Origin: Eunapius fragilis
Lineage: Eukaryota > Porifera > Demospongiae > Spongillida > Spongillidae
NCBI GenBank assembly: GCA_963681505.1
Contig: OY811975.1
Coordinates: 8,856,635-8,920,634, forward strand
Reading direction: 5' to 3'
Length of the DNA stretch: 64,000 nucleotides
Positions 45,592 to 57,888 of this stretch are shown one piece after another. The number at the start of each line of letters is the position of its first letter. Position 1 is the stretch's first letter. A program made the translations under genes and the position numbers. The notes beneath the pieces were generated by a model that was not told the origin of the DNA, ran no database searches, and was given only the letters and a program-made list of their open reading frames with translations.

Positions 45592-46196
45592 ATGAACGTC
45601 AGCGGAATATTGAAGATCCAAACACGTCGACATACGTATATCAACATCCTTTGATGCTGCACAGAAACGACCCAAAGGTTGAAAGTAATTTGGTTGGAGG
45701 ATAGGGCATGCATGTTGAATCATACATACATGCAGGGCTCATCGTGCAGTATTGGAGGCAACATAAGAACGTTGCCGTATTATTGGCTAATTTGATCATA
45801 TAGTTCATCGTGTTTCTGTTGGGGGAGTTTTATTGTGTATAACATTTAAAGAACTGACGTCGGCATACGTGAGATGTAAAACATTTCAGCCCCTTCACAA
45901 ATATAACTCGTTGGGGTGGGAGGGAGAATGCCTTCATCATACTAGCCCTCTAGTCCTTCCTAGATTAGATGCCCAATGTTCAAATAAGCTAATATCATGG
46001 CAACGCTCTTATATGTTGCCTCCAATACTGCACGATGAGCCCTGCATGTATGTATGATTCAACATGCATGCCCATATCCTCCAATCAAATTATATTCAAC
46101 CTCTTGGTCGTTTCGGTGCAGCATCAAAGGATGTTTATACACGCATATGTCGACGTGTTCGGCTCTTTAATAAGAATATTATTCCGCTGACGTTCA
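45592..46196. repeat. long inverted repeat, ~200-bp arms, ~190-bp spacer
   Basis: The left arm, 45592-45792, begins 'gaacgtcagcggaatatt' and includes 'aacatcctttgatgctgcac' and 'gcatgcatgttgaatcatac'. The right arm, 45985-46196, is its reverse complement with scattered differences and a few indels. The spacer is unrelated sequence. Confidence 0.9.
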
Positions 46197-46857
46197 TTAC
46201 GTAACCAAATAGTGCGCCATCCCATATCGTGCGCTGTACAACCTCAAAAAGTGCGTGGCGTAATTGACTTGGTACAATTTCGAGTAGCGCGTGATGCAAT
46301 CGCGGTTAGTGCGCTGTGCAAATTGCAAATAGTGCGCGGCGCAACTGTCTTGGTGCGCGACCAACGGGGCCACCGTAATATTTAACATTGGACGGGCAAA
46401 TCAATGAATAATTAAATAAGAGTGGACGGGGATAATTAATAGTGGGAGGAACCACCACAATGGAAAAGTTGTTGTCTGACAACCTCTCTCTCTGTCTCAA
46501 CCACAAGGGGCATCCATCCCTCTCGCCCTTCCGAGGCGTACGAAGGAGCGCTGCAAGACCCCTACACCAAGGCCTGGGGTGGAGCCCCAGAAGCTCTGCT
46601 TACGGTGCATTATTAATGTCTAGAAGCATATGAATATTCACTCGCACGTTCACGCGCGTAAGATCAGCTAAAACAAGTTAAGTAATGTATTAACGCACTT
46701 GAGGTTATACACTGTAGAATCATAATATTGTGTGAACAAACGTCTCCATGCACAATATTAAAACATCAGGATACTTCTACTTTTCTATAAATACCGACAA
46801 TGACTTCTGTCGCCGGTCATGATAAGCTTTTTTTAACGCAGCATTAGCGCTGGATGG

Positions 46858-47000: not shown

Positions 47001-48073
47001 AGTGGGGGACAGCATCAAGGAAGTATGGTCCATGCACTAGTGGATTAATTTGACTATCTCAGTGCTATTTTGGGATAAAGTTTTATCTGATTTTATCACT
47101 GTTTAGGGCCTCAATTTTTCAAGTAAAAAAATGGTTAATTATTTAATTGAATATTGTAGACTCAATTCGGTATCGGGTTGATTTTACTTTAATCGGTTTC
47201 TATGAGATTTGAGGCGTCAGTGACATTTTTGCATCTTTATTCTCTGTTCCGTTCTCTAACTACAAGTTTCTTAAGTTTTGCCCTTTCTACATGCGGTAGC
47301 AAAAACAACAATGAAAAATGAAATAATTGAAGTAACTCATGTTTCGCTAGCCCCATCATAGTAAATGGCTATCTAAGAGTACTCGAGCCTCGAGTCTCGA
47401 CTTCTCACTGGAAATAATCATTTTCTCCCTAATTAAATGGAGTAGTTACGAAGCAACTTAATGATAGATCGAACAAACGCCTACATGTACGCGAAAAGTG
47501 CTGTTTTAGCCTACGTGTAGGCGTTCTATTGCAACGTATGGTCCTCGCATTCAATGCCGTATAAAACTTTGAACTCGAATAAAGTAACACTTAAGCATAG
47601 GGCTTCGTTTTTAATTCGCTTTGGAGCTCTTTCAACCATCGGCTCTCTTTAGATACACGATCGAAATGGAGGAGCGTACAAAAATTGCCTACGATCTTGA
47701 TGAAAGTGAGTATAAAAGTTGGAAATCGTGTGTATTCGGAAAAAAGAGTTAAAATTATATCTGCCTATAAAACGAAGAATGCATCTAGAAAGTTTTTTTT
47801 GCAAATCAGAACAACTCCAGCTATATGAGGGGCGCGCCCAACAGAGCGTTCGTAGCACTAGCAGCACGCTGGCGTTGTTTTCTGCCGCCAGCTTGCAAGT
47901 AGCCCTCTTTATTATATTGGTCCTTATTATTTCAAGCGTTGGCTGTATGTACATTGTTTGGAATAAAGCGATTTGCAACGCCTACATGTAGGTTAACGCG
48001 CATTCGACGATGTGTCATTAAAGTTAACCGCTTGGAAGTTAGCACCACATTCCTCAGCACCACATTCCAATGT

Positions 48074-48649
48074 AATTCGATTATTCTATAATCAAAAGGT
48101 GCGCGTGCGCTTGCTGACGCGCGCCGCACTCTAATCTTACCGTTAGGGACTTTCTGTGCGGCAACAAGGTGCCTGTCGGAGGGAGGGCTATAACCTGTGC
48201 GCGCGCCGCACGTCGTACCGTTAGGGACTTTTTGTGCCTCAATGCCTGCGTTGCAATGGCACGATAGTAGGTGAACACAAAAAGTAATACGAAATACGAA
48301 CTACGAAATACGAACATATTCATTCTGGAAATGTGTGTGCAAGGTAGTGCGCAATCGCTTTCTTGCGACTGATATTATAGTGTTTCATGATAAGTGATGT
48401 AACAATCTATGAAAGAGTCATGTCATTTGCGTATTATGTATACACTACGTGCCTTACTTCTGGCCATACAATAAGTTTGTTCATGGGTGTCATGGAAACT
48501 GAAGCAGTTTTCTTGCAGTCACTTTCCACTTCCATAAGGTAATGAATTATTTCATCAACCTAAAATGATCCCATTGACTTGTGGTTAAAGTTGACACATG
48601 CAACTTACCATATCTTGACAGTGCTGCAAAGGCCAATATGAGTCATTTT
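48074..48649. other. subterminal region of the MULE-like element
   Basis: A block 'taccgttagggactttctgtgc' or 'taccgttagggacttttt' occurs twice, at about 48137 and 48218, each followed or preceded by 'gcgcgccgcac'. No gene was seen downstream of the protease stop at 48650. Confidence 0.5.
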
Positions 48650-49522
48650 TCACAAGCGTTTTAACAATAGGAATATTCCCATGATATTCACTAAGTAGCT
48701 GTCCATTCTGAAGCTTTCTGATAAAAAAGTATCGCAATCTACTGAATTTGTTTGAGCTGGTGAACCATTGGTCTAAAAATATATTACATCACATGATGGT
48801 AACACTAGAAGTGCATACTTTTGAGTCATTGTATTTCCAATCTGAGATTGACAGCCTTTGCTTCAAGTTATGGTAAACCTCAGTGCAAATGTACAGCCTT
48901 AAATTAGAAAAAATATTTCAATGTACTATACAAATTATCACATTATCTAACCATATCCAATTGAAGGCATCATCATTTGAGTCATGCAATGGGTCAAAGC
49001 AATCAACAGTTTTCTGGTGAGGGTGGACCACCTGTCAGGTTCATGAAATACATGACAACAAATCTGAATCTATTTTAACCAACCATCAAACACCAGTGTT
49101 TGGTCTTGTGTACAGGGAAGAGTAGCACATCATACATCAATATGTTTACTCCCTTGTAGTATTGTATAATTTATGCATGTAACAATGATTGCTTTTCATA
49201 CATACTTTCGAAAGTGTTGATACTGCTTCAAAACCATTTGCTCTTAAGATTGGAATCAGTAAGGGATCAAAGCACATCACTGTTCTCCCCACCTGGTTGT
49301 AACACAATGAAAGTTACTTCAGAACTAGAGCAAAGAAATTTGGATAATTAGATTACACTTGACAAGGATGTTTGCAGAAGTTCCATGTATGCAACAATTA
49401 CCTAAATGAGCACATTCAAGAATGAAACCTTGCTAACCGTTGCCAAATCTTGAGAACTTACTCGAGAATCAATCCAATCTCCTGATACCAGAGCCAATAT
49501 ATCTGTTTCCAGAAGCTGAAAT
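48650..49522 (-). CDS. Ulp1/SENP-like cysteine protease (C48) region
   Basis: Six minus-strand exons splice in consistent phase: 49522-49462, 49292-49206, 49152-49084, 49031-48952, 48897-48819 and 48772-48650. The first encodes LLETDILALVSGDWIDSR, matching the L-x-x-G-x-W-(L/I)-(N/D)-D motif at the start of Ulp1 domains. The third encodes YDVLLFPVHKTKHWCLM, with the catalytic His before Trp. The fourth encodes VVHPHQKTVDCFDPLHDS, with the catalytic Asp. The last encodes PAQTNSVDCDTFL, with the oxyanion Gln and nucleophile Cys, then a stop. Known C48 enzymes cleave SUMO or NEDD8 conjugates. The Gly that usually follows DC is Asp here. It may be the C-terminal part of the upstream gene, since a weak donor could splice 49844-49787 onto 49522, or it may be a separate gene. 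The region is about 166 residues, somewhat short for a complete Ulp1 core. Confidence 0.75.
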
Positions 49523-49766
49523 CTGGAATGTGGCTTTAATGTATTTCCTTGTATCTTTATGTATCAAACAAAACATTGCATGCATATAATTGCACTTAGG
49601 GTCACGTGCAAACCTTGGCTTCCAAGTGGTCTGGCAAGCCAACAAACGGCTGTTGGGAAAGCATATCCTTTAAGCAGAGCATTAAGCCTAGATATGTTCT
49701 TACAAATTGGGTGCCAACACAAATGGGTTGAGTGGAATTAATTTTATCAATAAAGGTCTAAGTGGA

Positions 49767-52700
49767 TTAAGTAACAAAATACCACGTAATATAGTAACTT
49801 GCATCTTTCATGCATGATGCATATATAGCAAGGCAAATGTTTTCCTGCAAAAGAATGATATCAATGCTATTCAAAATAAATATTACATACCTCTACTTCC
49901 GGCATTGTGTTGTAGTGTGAAGTTTGAATTTCAGTAACTTTAGCTTCATTATACAATATCCACTTGTTCTGATTTCTTACTGCACACGTATCTGTATTAG
50001 AACCACAATTTATACCATGAATTAAGCAAATGATTTAGTTACAATGTCCACTTGTAGCACTCTCTCCATGATGGATCTTTAATGTGAAGATAAATAAATC
50101 AATACTAGTACTACTGATAATCAAGATTTATCTGCTCACGACTATTGAACTCAGCTCGTAACATATGCTTCCATCGATACTTGGATGAGATAATTGTTGC
50201 CATCTGTGTACTTAGATATGAAAATAGTGTTTCTTTTTGAATCATAAAGAAATCACCTTGGAACAATTACTTGGCTTTTAAGCTTGACAGATGTATTCTC
50301 ATCTGACACCCGATTGCAGTGAATAATTAATACTGGTGGAAGCAGCATGTGACTTTCTATAATGTCTAAAGAATTATTGCACTTTTCACAACACCTGAAA
50401 GAAACAGTAATCACTTACAGATGTGCCATGGGAAGGTACTTACGTTTGTACTTCCATGTGTGATAATATAGTTGCTTCCAGATAGACCAACATTGACTCA
50501 AACACATTTCTTTTTGATGAATCACCACTTGAAACTACAGTACATGATGAAACCTCATGCACAGGCTATTTAAGATGAGAAGTGTGAAGTCAATACTAAA
50601 CTTTTAAGAACAGCAATTACCAATGAACAGCAATGTGCAACCTTGTTGAACTTTGTTCTAAAAACCTCCTCACACTTGTATGGCATCTGTAAAAAAAAAA
50701 GTGGTTACCAATGTGTGCTGCTCAAAACAAATTAAAATTTACATTAGTTGACATAAGTAACTTTTCTATTATTGCCATAATTCCTTCACAGCAATCATTT
50801 TGAGCTCCATACTGAAGGAATACAGCTTCCCTTGTTAGCAACTTCTATTGGAGTAGAGCTATTATTAACTGTAGCTGTAAAGATACTGAAAAACCCTTAC
50901 TGCAAAGTCAGTAGATATACAATAACGTTTTTCAGTGTTCTTGAGGTTTTGCATTAGGTCCACAAAGCTTGCTTGAAGTGGAGTCAAACCGGTTGAAGGC
51001 AGTGCTATAGTATATAAAAATTACTAGCTGTTCCAACTTGAATGATATGGGTAGTTTACCTTGCAGCATCAGCAGCAATGGAGTGCAACTAAGAGATTGC
51101 AAAACCGAATTCAGCCAGCAAAGATTGGAACTACTTTTAAGTCCTGAATTAAGTTTCTTAATAACTTCAATCATATCTCCCAATGCTGTTTTCTCTTTCG
51201 TTTGTAACTGGTATGATCGTGGTAATAATGATGGTGACTTCGGAGATGGTTGTGCTGGTGATGATGGGTTTGGAAACAATGTGCTGCTAGAATTTTGAAC
51301 GGGAAAAGATGTGGGGAGAGGGTCATTGTCTGGTTGCTGATGTGAGTAGTATGGGGAGAACATAGCCAGGTTACAGGGTGATGTAAAAGTAACATGCTTT
51401 GGAAAGCTTACCATGGCAACTTCTTTGGCTGGAACAATCCCAGTACGGCAACAACAACCAAAAAAAAATCATAAACTACAATGCTGATATACAGCATTGT
51501 CATACCAGTAAACTCATCAATATCAATCAAATGTATTAATTCTTTAGGAGGCTGCTGGAAAAATCCATGGGATCTTTTTGTGTCGATAATTCGTCTTTGC
51601 CACTTCTCTTTAAGTCGCCGAGATGGCTTTCTTAGAAGAGATTTCTAATTAGAAAATAATTATAGCACATTACGTAGCTAGCAGAACAACTCACCTTTAC
51701 TCGTTTTTTAATAGGCTGTGTCATGTCGTCAAAGAATTGCCTTTGTCGTGCAATTATCAAAGGGTAGTGTTCTTTTAAGAATACATCAGGTCGCAATCGC
51801 TTTTGCGAATGATCGACCTTTTTCAGAATATAATTCCAGGCTTCAATTGTTCCAGCTGTTCGTGTCAGTTCATTCTGTTGTACCATAATATCCATCAACT
51901 AAATTGTGTACGGCTTTACAGCCATAAATATATTACCAGAGATGTTGCATCTAAAGCCTTTTCTGCTTTATGACGTTCCAGATCGCCTGTTAAATTAAAA
52001 AAATTGAAATTATGAACACTATATACGACAAGTTAAATTTTACCCAGCATCAGGCATGTCCAAAATGGTGCCATTGGCATCCATTTCTCAATGATCGTTA
52101 AGAAAAAATGTGGTTGGTAATACATATTTTTACACTTTTCCTGTGATGTTAGGCTCACTTTTGCCACTTTAAGTTGGAAATATGCCCCAAAAGGTTGCAC
52201 ATGTAATGAGTCATTATCATAATCTGATAAGTCACTTAATATTTCCTCTGTATTGCAGTAATCGTGTTCATGTGGCAAGGTTAATGTTTCTTTATTAAGT
52301 AAGTTTATAATCCTGACAATACAATTGTATGCTTTTCTGGTATCTACTGATTCCATTTCTGAGCAATACAATACTTTTAAGAGACATAATCTCTTCACCA
52401 ACTCATTTAAAGTTGTACAGTTTACGAGGCTAGAAAAGCTGTACATAGAAAAAGAATACAGCCTTTTCTGAAACCTACGGTAGAAGAAAAATATTGCATT
52501 TTACTATTGAAAACATCTAAATTAATAAAACTCACCACTTTTTGCAATCCTTTTTAGCAGAATTCATCACGTGACTAGTACAGGCATGAGGAGATATCTT
52601 TTTAATATCCTTGTCACTTCCTGCTCCACTACATACACGGAAGGTTCTTTGGAGGTATTCGTGTAATGTTTCCATATTAAATGCCTGCAAAAAGCTCAGC

Positions 52701-55298
52701 AACAAAACCATACTGCGATCAATGAATATGTGTTTGGGGCTAATGAGATTATTAAATCCAAATATTAAACCCTCTGCTCGTCGAAAGCAATTAATAAAGT
52801 AGCAAACAGTTAAAACAGTGTGATCCGTTGATATTAATTCTGCCACTGCAATTGGCGGTTTGCCTCTGATGGGGTGTTTCATCACTAGGCTGTAGTAGTA
52901 CGTTACAAGTTTATTTCCAGCCTCATTACGAACAGACACTATAGTGCCAGTAGCATCACAAAATATAGGGTTTCTCTTTGCTACTTCGTGATACAACCTC
53001 ACTGCTGCATCATTGAAGCATATAACTGCAAATGGAGAGGCCTGAATACACTGTATGTACCCACAAACAGCTGGTTTTTGGTTAAATTCTTCTTTGACAA
53101 GTTTTGCCTCATCTAATTCAAATATTTGTTTAAGTATTAGCAGAGATGATACAAGGTTTTCGTCTTCTTGTAATGCAAGCCTTGCTTCCGATGATATTTT
53201 TCGTAATGCAGAAGGGTTACAGCCTACATTGTCGCGATTTCCTGTTGCAAATTGTCCAGGTGTGAGCTTCATAAGCCTTCCTATATACTCTTTAGATGGA
53301 GGTATACGCGTCTGTTGGAAATATGTCTGTGTATCTTTTCTGACACTTAGACTCAATCTACGAGCATGTCGTTCGCTGGCGATATGGCATATGCTCCCCT
53401 CAAACTTGACATTTATGGTTACATTAGTGTTTGACAATCCTTCATCTTTAATGTCCAGAAATGCTAGCACATTACACGTAGAAAATGTGCAATAAGCATT
53501 AGCTTTAAAGAAGAAATTAGATGATTTAGAAGAAGATTTTTTTTAATCCAATGTTTTCTAAACGCAAAACTGCAGTATGTATTGATTTCAGCCAATCCTT
53601 TAGAAAATAAATGAACCCATGAAGGATTAACTTTCTCATTGCCAAAATGTAAGAGGAATTCATCTTGGCTTATGTCAAATTTTCCAAACTGATCTAGTGA
53701 TTTCCTCATAACAGCATTGTGGCCTTCATAAATTTCCATTGATTTACCAAGACATATAGCAGTTTGCCTTGATAGGCCTGACTGATATGAAAGATACAAA
53801 TAATGTTATACACTCTACCGCCAGAGTTACACACCATAAACTCAAACCCCGCCAGTGGCCGCCGCAGGCCGTGGCTAAGCCCCAAGGCACCTACAGCAGC
53901 CTACAGCTACCGAGGTGGCGGGGGGTCCCAAGTGCAGCATCATAGATGTGAGGCTCTAGAGCCTTATGGGCTCTAGCCTGATAGCAGACTATATCAGCAT
54001 GGAATTTACATGCATCATACTAACAACTTTATTTTATGCGTTCAACACTTTGACTTTGTGTTAGTAATTATTGCCCTAACTGAAAAATATTATACAGATT
54101 AATAACCTGGTGAATTAAAAGATAATCTTAAAATAACATATTCTTAAAATAAAAAGTATTTTTAAAAATACTCATTACATTGCAACTATTTCTTTGTACC
54201 ATGTTCAGTACTCATACGGAATTGCAGCATAACAGCAACATGCACAACATGTAGCATATACCTCATGAATTGATGTAATTTGAGTATCTTCCTTTTGCTG
54301 TGCAGCTAGTAATTAAAAATTAATGCTTTTACTATAGTAACATATATTCAAAGCAACATTAATGAAAACGAACCTTCAGTTGTATAGAAGGGAGTGGGTA
54401 TGCCTTCCATGGTACATGCAGAGCATTTGTATGCAGTGATACATAGAGATTTTTCTAAAGATATCCCGACACAATCGCCATGATACCATTTGCCACAGTA
54501 GTCACATGCTATCATGAACCTTTTAAAATGAAGAACATTACACATCAATTTTTGTAATTGACCAGGTACTGTTTAACCTTGACTCATCGAAAGGTTCCTG
54601 ACAGATGCAGTATAATTTCTCGTCTTCACGAAGCAAGGCTTCGAGGTTTATTGCTTGTTGATGATTCGCGATCGGCGTAACAACTTGCATTCCAATACTC
54701 CATTCAAAATTATATAAACATGTAGTATAGAGCATTATTTATATGGCTATTTTTTTAGTATTTATCAGCAAACCTTGGCTCGACCAAGCTTTCATCTCCA
54801 ACATATAACGGGACAAATTCCTCCTGCACCTCAGCAACATCACCACCACTCACATCATCCATGTCACCATCGTCGTCTACACCTTCTTCTGTGCCTCCAA
54901 TCACTTCTTTGTCCTGATGCTGTAACTCGCCTTCAGTAAATAATAATACAGAAACTATAGTAGCAAATTTGTGAGACACTTATGTACTGATGCCTTACCA
55001 AGAGATGTGCGCAGACCACCTTTGTTGTACTGCCAACATTTATACACAGCAAGAACATAATTATCTGATGGTTTGATACAGTTAGATAAAGCTGCAGCAA
55101 CTAAGAACCAGTATCCATTCGGGCCACATCGGGAGGAATTGAGAGGAGGGAGGCCTTTCTTTCTGATAACAGCAATGAGTCTCGCAAAGTCTATGTTGTA
55201 TTTCTTCTTCCCCTGACAGATTCATCTGGTTATACACACCGCGCAGATATGAATTGAAATCAACATACCATAGCAAACAAATCTTTCACAGACTGCAT
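49767..55298 (-). CDS. PHD finger - MULE transposase - USP-like protease fusion
   Basis: Twenty-one minus-strand exons chain with GT-AG introns: 55298-55269, 55212-54999, 54930-54774, 54697-54578, 54519-54374, 54305-54262, 53781-52536, 52474-52044, 51986-51937, 51898-51695, 51644-51506, 51428-51060, 51004-50901, 50844-50743, 50686-50621, 50565-50444, 50394-50257, 50210-50140, 50076-50043, 49991-49891 and 49844-49767. An acidic linker leads into a C4HC3 PHD finger (KLYCICQEPFDESR, MIACDYCGKWYHGDCVGIS, YKCSACT). The transposase exon has FCDATG (first Asp, near 52955), IFIDRS (candidate second Asp) and HACTSHVMNSAKK (the C-x2-H typical of MULEs). After basic and Ser/Pro linkers comes a C19-like domain: Cys box SSNLCWLNSVLQSL, LLPPVLIIHCNR, His box IHHGESATSGHYTC, and WILYNEAKVTEI. 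Two breaks were seen: exon 7 lacks one base at an A8 run (53537-53544), and the phase of exon 18 does not fit exon 19. Confidence 0.78.
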
Positions 55299-55590
55299 TG
55301 ATGCTGGTGGTACTTATATATATATATAGCCCAAACAATTCTATATATCTATTAATGGTTCGATGACTTCAGCTTCCGTGATCGAGAGAACAATTGCTTT
55401 GAACGCCACTTGAATGGTGTGTTAAAAGGGAGCTTTGTCAAAGGTTAGTAGGTCAAGCCTGCCTCTCCGTCTGAAAAAAGGTTAGTAGGTCAAGCCTGCC
55501 TCTCTGTCTGCCCTCTAAATAACCAATGCTCAAACTAGACTGTCCTTTGAATGGCTCCAGGTAATGTATTGTACTAATACAATTCAAGTA
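55299..55590. promoter_or_regulatory. probable 5' region of the transposase fusion gene
   Basis: A 'tatatatata' run at about 55318-55328 lies 20-30 bases upstream (minus strand) of the proposed start at 55298 and could serve as a TATA element. A 'ggttagtaggtcaagcctgc' unit is duplicated at about 55442 and 55480. Confidence 0.35.
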
Positions 55591-56893
55591 ATGATTGACA
55601 TAGCCACGGTCTTCAAAGGGAGGGGCATAACACACAAAAAGTGCATAACAATTTCAGACAGACATAGTGAGATGTCCCTATGCCTCTGTCATACCAGTCC
55701 ATCGCCCTGTTTTTGTGCATCATGGTTGCGGGTCACCTGTACTATAAAAGGAATGATTGACATAGCCACGGTTCTCAAATGGGAGGGGCATAGCACACAA
55801 AAAGTGCATAGCAGTGTCAGACAGACCTAGTGAGATGTCCCTATGCCTCTGTCATACCAGTCCATCGCCCTGTCTTTGTGCATCATGGTTGCGGGTCACC
55901 TGTACTATAAAAGGAATGATTGACATAGCTACGGTTCTCAAAGGGGAGGGGCATAGCAAACAAAAAGTGCATAGCAGTGTCAGACAGACCTGTTGAGATG
56001 TCCCTATGCCTCTGTCATACCAGTCCATCGCCCTGTTTTTGTGCATCATGGTTGCGGGTCACCTGTACTATAAAAGGAATGATTGACATAGCTACGGTTC
56101 TCAAAGGGGAGGGGCATAGCACACAAAAAGTGCATAGCAGTGTCAGACAGACCTAGTGAGATGTTCCTATGCCTCTGTCATACCAGTCCATCGCCCTGTT
56201 TTTGTGCATCATGGTTGTGGGTCACCTGTACTATAAAAGGAATGATTGACATAGCTACGGTTCTCAAAGGTGAGGGGCATAGCACACAAAAAGTGCATAG
56301 CAGTGTCAGACAGACCTAGTGAGATGTCCCTATGCCTCTGTCATACCAGTCCATCGCCCTGTTTTTGTGCATCATGGTTGCGGGTCACCTGTACTATAAA
56401 AGGAATGATTGACATAGCTACAGTTCTCAAAGGGGAGGGGCATAGCACACAAAAAGTGCATAGCAGTGTCAGACAGACCTAGTGAGATGTCCCTATGCCT
56501 CTGTCATACCAGTCCATCGCCCTGTTTTTGTGCATCATGGTTGCGGGTCACCTGTACTATAAAAGGAATGATTGACATAGCTACGGTTCTCAAAGGGGAG
56601 AGGCATAGCACACAAAAAGTGCATAGCAGTGTCAGACAGACCTAGTGAGATGTCCCTATGCCTCTGTCATACCAGTCCATCGCCCTGTCTTTGTGCATCA
56701 TGGTTGCGGGTCACCTGTACTATAAAAGGAATGATTGACATAGCTACGGTTCTCAAAGTGGAGGGACATTGCACACAAAAAGTGCATAGCAGTGTCAGAC
56801 AGACCTAGTGAGATGTCCCTATGCCTCTGCCATACCATTCCATCGCCCTACATGTGTGCATCATGGTTGCGGGTTCACCTGTACAATAAAAAG
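55591..56893 (+). repeat. tandem array, 8 units of ~163 bp
   Basis: Units start at about 55591, 55753, 55915, 56078, 56241, 56404, 56567 and 56730 with 'atgattgacatagc'. They include 'cacacaaaaagtgcatagca', 'agatgtccctatgcctctg', 'ccagtccatcgccctg' and 'cgggtcacctgtactataaa'. Units differ by only a few bases. The first and last diverge most. The 163-base period is not a multiple of three, so the frames inside are not a protein repeat. The array lies inside the right end of the MULE-like element. Confidence 0.95.
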
Positions 56894-57888
56894 TCTCATT
56901 TCTGTGCAACTTGGTAGGGTTAGCCAGGCGCCTTGGACACAAAAAGTACCGTGATTCCAGTCCATATGTGGAAGCCCGGCTCATATAACAGGCCGTGTCG
57001 TGAACTGGTAAGTAGGCTGTTTTCCTTCTGCGCAAGCAGCTAGCTACATGTACCTGAACGTTCTGGCCGCGATTAATGTTGGCCGCATTAATGATTATCG
57101 TCAGGCCGCATCTTAATCACATTACAAATTAATTGGAATGTGGTGCTGAGGAATGTGGTGCTAACTTCCAAGCGGTTTAAAGTTATTCATTGTTGTTTTT
57201 GCTACCGCATGTTGACGTAAGCTACGCAAAAAGTAAAAACTTAAGAATAAGAACGGAGCACAGGAAAAAGATGCGGAGAATGTTGTGGATGCCTCAAATC
57301 CAATAGATATCGACGAAAAATCAACCCGGTGCCGAATTGAACCAAAATATAGAATGAACCATTTTTTAATTTGAAGATCTAAACAGTGATAAAATCAGAG
57401 ATATGTTTATGAGTTTATTTATACATCTTGCAATTGCATTTACCTGAATAAAGTTTCCTTCTTTCGAGAGCGAGGAATTCTTTAACTCTATATTTCACCC
57501 ACCACTTTATTTCAAATCACACATGTGCAGTTACCTTCACACCTTTACACGTGTTTATGGAGCGAAAAAAAGATCAAGCTCAAGAACTTATACAGCTAAT
57601 GCTCAAAATGACGAAGAAATGGAAGATGAAGTGTACACTCTAAGGTAGAGAGTGATATTACTTGAAGGCCGGGTTCAGGAACAGGAGAAAGAGTTTGAAA
57701 AGTCACAGCAGCATATGCCAGCGAGTAGTAAGTTAAAGCAATACGTATATGTAGGACATATATATACAATTCTTGAATTTAATCTCATGGGATTCTTCAC
57801 CTCCGCTGAGATAAATAATACCTCTTCTACGTTCGGTACCTTATGCAATATGTACAAGTATAACACAAGTAACTAAAAACATGTGTTG

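Follow-up and report, generated by a model that had tools for sequence, protein, structure and literature searches.

A recently mobile MULE/Rehavkus-like transposon in a sponge, with a predicted transposase carrying a PHD finger and two protease domains

The domains that concern us here are already on record singly: Ulp1 in Mutator and Ginger transposons, the PHD finger in Rehavkus and in one Ginger1 family, and peptidase C19 beside another transposase. VANC proteins of the Vandal group of Mutator-like elements (MULEs) relieve silencing, and some of them carry Ulp1 (PMC13317346); animals use SUMO to keep transposons silent at the level of chromatin, and SUMO promotes silent chromatin in plants and yeast as well as in animals (PMC8131101). 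Papers cited by PMC number were available as excerpts, and what we say of them refers to those excerpts. Here we describe a DNA transposon in a stretch of 64,000 nucleotides (hereafter the window, whose coordinates are used unless noted) from the sponge Eunapius fragilis (assembly GCA_963681505.1, contig OY811975.1, positions 8,856,635 to 8,920,634, forward strand). Its predicted gene joins a transposase to a PHD finger, a USP-type deubiquitinase (peptidase C19) domain and a SENP-type SUMO protease (Ulp1, peptidase C48) domain. Its ends are defined by comparison with other copies, its domain order recurs, most of the catalytic residues are kept, and each of the named domains is under constraint.

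The transposon spans positions 48027-57176 (9,150 bp), with the gene on the minus strand. In an inverted-repeat search of the window, 48026-48071 and 57132-57177 came out as perfectly matching arms of 46 nt; these become a 45-bp terminal inverted repeat (TIR) starting ACCGCTTGGAAG once the flanks are taken into account, with the 9-bp target-site duplication (TSD) TTAAAGTTA bordering the transposon on each side. A first-pass annotation, made from the letters of the stretch, had placed a Mutator-like transposase gene at 48650-55298; the features it named are all present in the minus-strand exons, but the transposon is wider and the gene model continues to 48320.

The genome as searched (219 Mb in 24 contigs) has wnt matches at three loci, which marks it as that of an animal; a small number of Wnts would suit a sponge. 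In this genome a 304-bp query from the 3' end found at least 41 matching places, a lower bound obtained with 40 of 89 candidates scored. Of these, 16 were full-length at 97-100% identity, and five full-length matches, the window copy included, shared the top score. Eleven elements of family A, to which the window copy belongs, have both ends in hand. They are 7.4 to 13.9 kb long, their TIRs are identical over 44 bp at 22/22 ends and over 45 bp at 21/22 (the deviating end differs in its last base), and the 9-bp TSD is perfect in ten and carries one mismatch in the eleventh. When the core encoded by exon 7 was used as a query, 90 matches were listed, 44 of them covering at least 250 of the 336 residues; besides one near-identical group they include diverged ones, with identities of about 59, 57, 55 and 51%. 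A more diverged query (from locus L072) added no further families beyond the same clade in this genome. The transposon is recently mobile and of the cut-and-paste kind. A long, many-exon and well conserved gene could also suggest a host gene, that is, a domesticated transposase rather than a mobile element, a reading to which we give almost no credence. It conflicts with the TIRs and TSDs present at all 11 sites and with near-identical copies at unrelated places, including the 44 long core matches, and for this family the TSDs refute it.

Ends may have been exchanged between subfamilies, as the sequences suggest: family A has the TIR and at least 100 bp in common with a subfamily (L082-L084) to which it is about 53% identical over exon 7, and the first 307-314 bp of two subfamily-B 5' ends (L032, L033) match the window from 57176 downwards at about 99%. 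The 163-bp unit of a minisatellite lying between the 5' TIR and the gene is present in all three family-A 5' ends for which 1.5 kb was in hand (L031, L034, L035) and was not found in those two subfamily-B ends. Overlapping plus-strand open reading frames (ORFs), each some 75 aa long and about as many as there are units, run through the minisatellite (55586-56891) and are probably a by-product of the repeat. A diverged inverted repeat at 47075-47318/57183-57410 flanks the TIRs on both sides, from about the right-hand TSD. We tried it as a pair of long TIRs and rejected it, as it lies outside the TIRs and is matched only partly; given this repeat, the transposon appears to sit in or beside an older inverted duplication.

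Within the transposon we placed a model of 31 exons (minus strand, 55298 to 48320; exon 1 tentative), whose features are collected in Table 1. Because the exons were placed by hand at GT-AG borders, these borders are there by construction, and the support for the model comes from the frames joining up. In order, the exons encode an N-terminal domain, an acidic linker, a PHD finger, a WRKY-like zinc domain, a DDE/CxxH core, a USP domain and a SENP-type domain. The N-terminal domain (exon 2) matched no Pfam or NCBIfam family. The first-pass annotation had read an acidic linker, PHD finger, core, C19-like and Ulp1-like domain from minus-strand exons in this same order, and the gene model and Pfam matches agree with it. 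It had set the SUMO-protease-like domain alongside the rest; the domain is present, although it is truncated in the window copy and most likely belongs to the same gene as the USP domain.

Table 1. Features of the transposon and its predicted gene in the window
Feature	Position	Strand	Basis
Whole DNA transposon	48027..57176	-	Perfect inverted repeat, 9-bp TSD, ends shared with 10 other elements
TSD, left copy, TTAAAGTTA	48018..48026	.	Ends read with flanks
TSD, right copy, TTAAAGTTA	57177..57185	.	Ends read with flanks
TIR, 45 bp, gene's 3' side	48027..48071	+	Inverted-repeat search; comparison of ends
TIR, 45 bp, gene's 5' side	57132..57176	-	Inverted-repeat search; comparison of ends
Subterminal minisatellite, 163-bp unit x 8, between 5' TIR and gene	55586..56891	.	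TRF (Tandem Repeats Finder)
Exon 1, putative start codon, tentative	55269..55298	-	Hand model
Exon 2, conserved N-terminal domain, about 71 aa	54999..55212	-	Hand model; aligned in L071, L072, L073, L074
Exon 3, acidic linker	54774..54930	-	Hand model
Exons 4-5, PHD finger (C4HC3), closest to BPTF/PHF2/PHF8	54374..54697	-	Pfam 4.1e-8; PDB 1.3e-15 (BPTF)
Exon 7, WRKY-like zinc domain (C-x4-C..H..H), then DDE core with D1 (FCDATG), D2 (IDRS) and C-x2-H	52536..53781	-	
Exons 8-10, post-core; candidate catalytic Glu in GTIEAWN (exon 10)	51695..52474	-	
Exons 12-21, linker and USP (C19); Cys box in exon 12, His box split over exons 19-20	49799..51428	-	Pfam UCH
Exons 22-29, Ulp1/SENP (C48), cut by 812-bp deletion	48609..49687	-	Pfam C48
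Rest of exon 29 and exons 30-31, last part of conserved C-terminal domain	48320..48720	-	Hand model; alignment

The copy in the window has a frame break near 53544, in an A-run of exon 7, and comparison with another copy (L069, at C5:1.17 Mb) shows that 812 bp have been lost from within the Ulp1 domain, the junction (about 48721-48723) bearing a 3-bp repeat. This deletion, of the kind that interrupted gap repair might leave as a scar, takes away the end of the SUMO-protease domain; a second apparent frame break was rejected, as it is the junction of the deletion. In addition, Asp stands in place of the Gly that follows the Ulp1 Cys. L069 reads through 35 exons, with no frameshifts and no internal stops, between residue 82, at which the retrieved sequence starts, and the stop codon. 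Judged by their sequences, then, the window copy is defective and an open copy is present in the same genome.

Spliced pieces of the window protein matched PHD (PF00628, E=4.1e-8), UCH (PF00443, E=1.3e-26) and Peptidase_C48 (PF02902, E=2.6e-14), each above its curated cut-off; PHD, C19 and C48 profiles were among those that the first-pass annotation had named for a check. In the undeleted L069 the C48 match has E=1.3e-20, and all three full spliced proteins (L069, L071 and L073) pass the Pfam cut-offs for all three families, with UCH at 5.4e-25 to 5.8e-29 and C48 at 1.3e-19 to 1.3e-20. Among individual proteins, SENP1 was matched at E=1.7e-23, with its His, Asp, Gln and Cys aligned, and USP21 at E=5.8e-12; the L073 PHD finger matched those of PHF2 and BPTF at E=2e-18 to 4e-18. 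Four PHD positions that we take to be the methyl-lysine cage are Y, Y/F, M and W in five of six copies. By its C4HC3 pattern and these residues the finger is a predicted member of the H3K4me3-reader class.

Catalytic columns were tabulated in six copies. The USP Cys is present in five (L074 is not aligned there), the USP His in all six, and the third residue is Asn or Asp in five and Ser in L072. Ulp1 His and Asp are found in 6/6, and Gln and Cys in 5/6, the model of L070 stopping before both. The USP domain thus combines a C19 profile match with a Cys box, a His box and an Asn/Asp third residue; the Ulp1 domain matches the C48 profile and has the four residues His, Asp, Gln and Cys, although in the window copy the end of the domain is missing.

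We wrote a spliced protein-to-DNA aligner for this analysis and ran it on one copy from each of five other subfamilies (L070-L074). Identity to the query was 51-59% in the core, 49-57% in the PHD finger, 35-42% in the USP domain and 41-52% in Ulp1, and 54-59% in the C-terminal domain (four copies). The N-terminal domain, PHD finger, core, USP, Ulp1 and C-terminal domain all aligned in L071-L074; the L070 model lacks an aligned N-terminal domain and breaks off in the middle of Ulp1, close to where the retrieved sequence ends. The models of L070, L071, L072, L073 and L074 required 1, 2, 2, 1 and 3 forced frameshifts, and that of L072 one stop as well; these may be partly aligner artefacts in poorly conserved linkers and partly real decay. 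A recurrence of the domain order, which the first-pass annotation had proposed to look for in sponge and cnidarian genomes, is found within this genome, in copies of five further subfamilies (in L070 only as far as mid-Ulp1), and points to a lineage trait rather than a chance fusion. Chance or artefact was rejected on the Pfam E-values, the order repeated in subfamilies and the TSDs.

The PHD finger was also followed in four-kb loci surrounding exon 7. In 22 of these 30 loci the full set of 47 PHD columns aligned; among the 22, L056 has Phe for the first PHD Cys and L050 a frameshift inside the finger. Of the remaining eight, four show a PF00628 match that lies outside the locus, 1.6-4.5 kb upstream; in L048, L053, L054 and L055 no PHD finger was seen either in the four-kb locus or by an upstream PF00628 scan. 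As for relatives outside this genome, pattern scans of viral and genome contig collections matched 9 and 37 stretches, respectively, none of which was confirmed by tblastn, this genome being the only animal one covered.

Constraint was assessed from nonsynonymous divergence (pN) in five subfamily pairs, in which synonymous sites are at or close to saturation; the linker between core and USP served as an internal control. In the linker pN is 0.46-0.69, compared with 0.22-0.40 in the PHD, core, post-core, USP, Ulp1 and C-terminal parts. Ulp1 (0.27-0.36) is constrained about as strongly as the core (0.29-0.33) and USP (0.37-0.40) somewhat less, and neither protease domain looks like a passenger.

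A single predicted gene most likely holds both the USP and the Ulp1-like domain. The reading crosses the USP/Ulp1 junction in 6/6 models, although the aligner was fed one joined query, which favours this result, and no start Met common to the copies was found at the junction. What we read as one gene could instead be two or three adjacent ones within the element (transposase, USP and SENP), and the poor conservation of the USP-Ulp1 stretch, where the exon models differ, would suit that explanation, as would the bias of the joined query. We nevertheless consider it improbable, given the models that read through, the short gap from the end of the USP domain to the next exon (L069 5195-5316) and the lack of a shared start Met ahead of the Ulp1 part. 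Altogether, the TSDs and TIRs, the Pfam matches and the gene models agree with the earlier proposal that a PHD reader and two classes of protease are combined in one predicted protein of a real mobile element.

The core had been called MULE-type on the motifs FCDATG and HACTSHVMN. Both lie in exon 7, and D1, D2, C-x2-H and the Glu of GTIEAWN, which is assigned as catalytic by motif only, are kept in 6/6 copies, with D1 and D2 79 residues apart and D2 and E 232; D1 is Asn in one of 12 exon-7 rows (L068). WRKY folds came out top in a fold comparison of exon 7 residues 26-138. The TSD of 9 bp falls within the 8-11 bp of MULEs, the 45-bp TIRs are also as in MULEs, and the CxxH motif is common to MULE and hAT (PMC5225508). 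Several results weigh against this assignment or fail to support it. The MULE profile PF10551 had no match in the window pieces, in the three full proteins or in 12/12 members at E up to 10, and profile-profile comparison (hhalign, with thin profiles) against the genome's own PF10551 MULEs gave only a chance-like match of 17 columns. AlphaFold yielded two weak models of the DDE core, with mean pLDDT (predicted local distance difference test) of 45 and 38; a BFVD search with the first of these returned nothing at E<=0.001. The transposase part of the window protein matched no Pfam family. The MULE-type call thus fits the motifs, TSD, TIR and CxxH but finds no support in the profile, and since there is no PF10551 match we do not file the element as a proven MULE member. 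Mutator kinship fits by structure (TSD length, TIRs, CxxH and perhaps the zinc domain), and we call the element MULE/Rehavkus-like, without formal membership. By structure Rehavkus is the closest described kind, as our element has a 9-bp TSD, a TIR within 26-400 bp and a PHD finger. The TSD does not fit the 7 or 8 bp of the Kyakuja-Dileera-Zisupton group (8 bp in Zisupton and 7 bp in Kyakuja; PMC12730594) or the 4 bp of Ginger1, and no integrase family is among the Pfam matches.

We propose, with confidence and doubt in about equal measure, that this recently mobile MULE/Rehavkus-like transposon encodes a one-gene transposase-PHD-USP-SENP fusion that docks on chromatin and whose proteases blunt silencing and turnover. 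One spliced transcript would give a protein of about 1,750 residues comprising transposase, PHD finger, USP-type deubiquitinase, SENP1/2-type SUMO protease and C-terminal domain. The transposase would bind the element ends through its zinc domain and cut by DDE chemistry, while the H3K4me3-class PHD finger would dock the complex on active chromatin, at its own promoter or at new target sites. There the two proteases could strip both modifiers, SUMO and ubiquitin, off nearby silencing factors or off the transposase itself. Silencing that depends on SUMO would thereby be blunted, as would the turnover of protein, leaving transposition free to proceed. A precedent for such self-protection is offered by plant VANC proteins. 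A more pointed version, which we put forward only tentatively, is that the transposase is a chromatin-targeted double eraser, its H3K4me3-class reader bringing SUMO protease and deubiquitinase together to undo SUMO/ubiquitin silencing.

The same fused protein might instead use its proteases in the service of the transposase, keeping it free of SUMO and ubiquitin for stability and nuclear activity, or in the repair of its cuts, acting on repair factors at excised ends. This is the main rival reading, and we think it less likely than the proposal above. Bao et al. 2010 (PMC2836005) propose that the Ulp1/OTU domains of Ginger1 act on repair factors, and with both proteases predicted to lie within the transposase chain, the modifiers of the transposase itself would be their nearest substrates; a role of this sort alone, however, leaves the H3K4me3-class PHD finger unexplained. 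Should the docking and anti-silencing proposal hold, it would describe a self-contained anti-silencing machine fused to a DNA-moving enzyme in an animal transposon lineage. With proteases under constraint across subfamilies, the role of Ulp1 domains in transposons would become directly testable, as one genome offers copies both open and defective, well-defined ends and recognisable catalytic residues.

Other repeats were seen in the course of this work. A PF10551 MULE match (C1:8138498-8138782) and a PHD match (C1:8141348-8141488) lie on the same strand about 2.6 kb apart and are possibly another MULE+PHD element. Several contigs carry PHD ORFs whose scores are the same or nearly so, those of 193 aa at many sites and those of 244 aa at several; PF10551 ORFs of 801-847 aa occur at six places, with one more of 549 aa scoring the same as two of the six. 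These repeated ORFs are other multi-copy families. The window also contains a strong fold-back at 45592-46197, MITE-like (miniature inverted-repeat transposable element) or a hairpin, in which a spacer of about 250 nt is enclosed by nested inverted arms of 18 nt (100%), 27 nt (89%), 75 nt (87%) and 62 nt (100%).

The literature searched, with subscription papers and Repbase outside it, yielded no transposase reported to combine PHD, C19 and C48, which is no proof of absence. A Mutator with both PHD and Ulp1 may already be known, since in PMC2836005 the legend of a figure refers to Ulp1 and PHD domains aligned from Ginger1 and Mutator transposases. The same source describes Mutator transposases of hydra and lancelet (Bao et al. 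2010), which, like our element, are animal and carry Ulp1; compared by description, they differ in that the excerpt mentions no USP (C19). Its Trichomonas protein, with Transposase_11 and Peptidase C19, joins a transposase to C19 as here, but the transposase is of another family and neither PHD nor Ulp1 is mentioned in that excerpt. Ginger1 too has a transposase with a C-terminal Ulp1, and in one family also a PHD finger, but its core is Gypsy-integrase-like, its TSD is 4 bp, and it is described as carrying OTU or Ulp1, never both (PMC2836005); our element has a deubiquitinase together with a SUMO protease. The plant Kaonashi/KIU elements, which the first-pass annotation had named as carriers of Ulp1-like domains, are indeed DNA transposons with Ulp1, tied to relief of silencing. 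The parallel is a loose one: they are non-TIR elements, and their Ulp1 lies in a VANC-type gene, one of three, and not in the transposase (PMC13317346). Mutator-like elements proper (PF10551) share with ours an 8-11 bp TSD, TIRs, the DDE order with CxxH after the second D and perhaps a zinc domain before the core, but there is no detectable sequence match to PF10551 or to the PF10551 elements of this genome. Rehavkus, a MULE outgroup (Dupeyron et al. 2019, PMC6446971), is alike, going by its published description, in its 9-bp TSD, TIR of 26-400 bp, one ORF, PHD finger and minisatellite near one end. It is listed there from arthropods and annelids only, its table row gives no USP or Ulp1, and its minisatellite lies just before the 3' TIR, whereas that of the sponge element lies on the 5' side of the gene.

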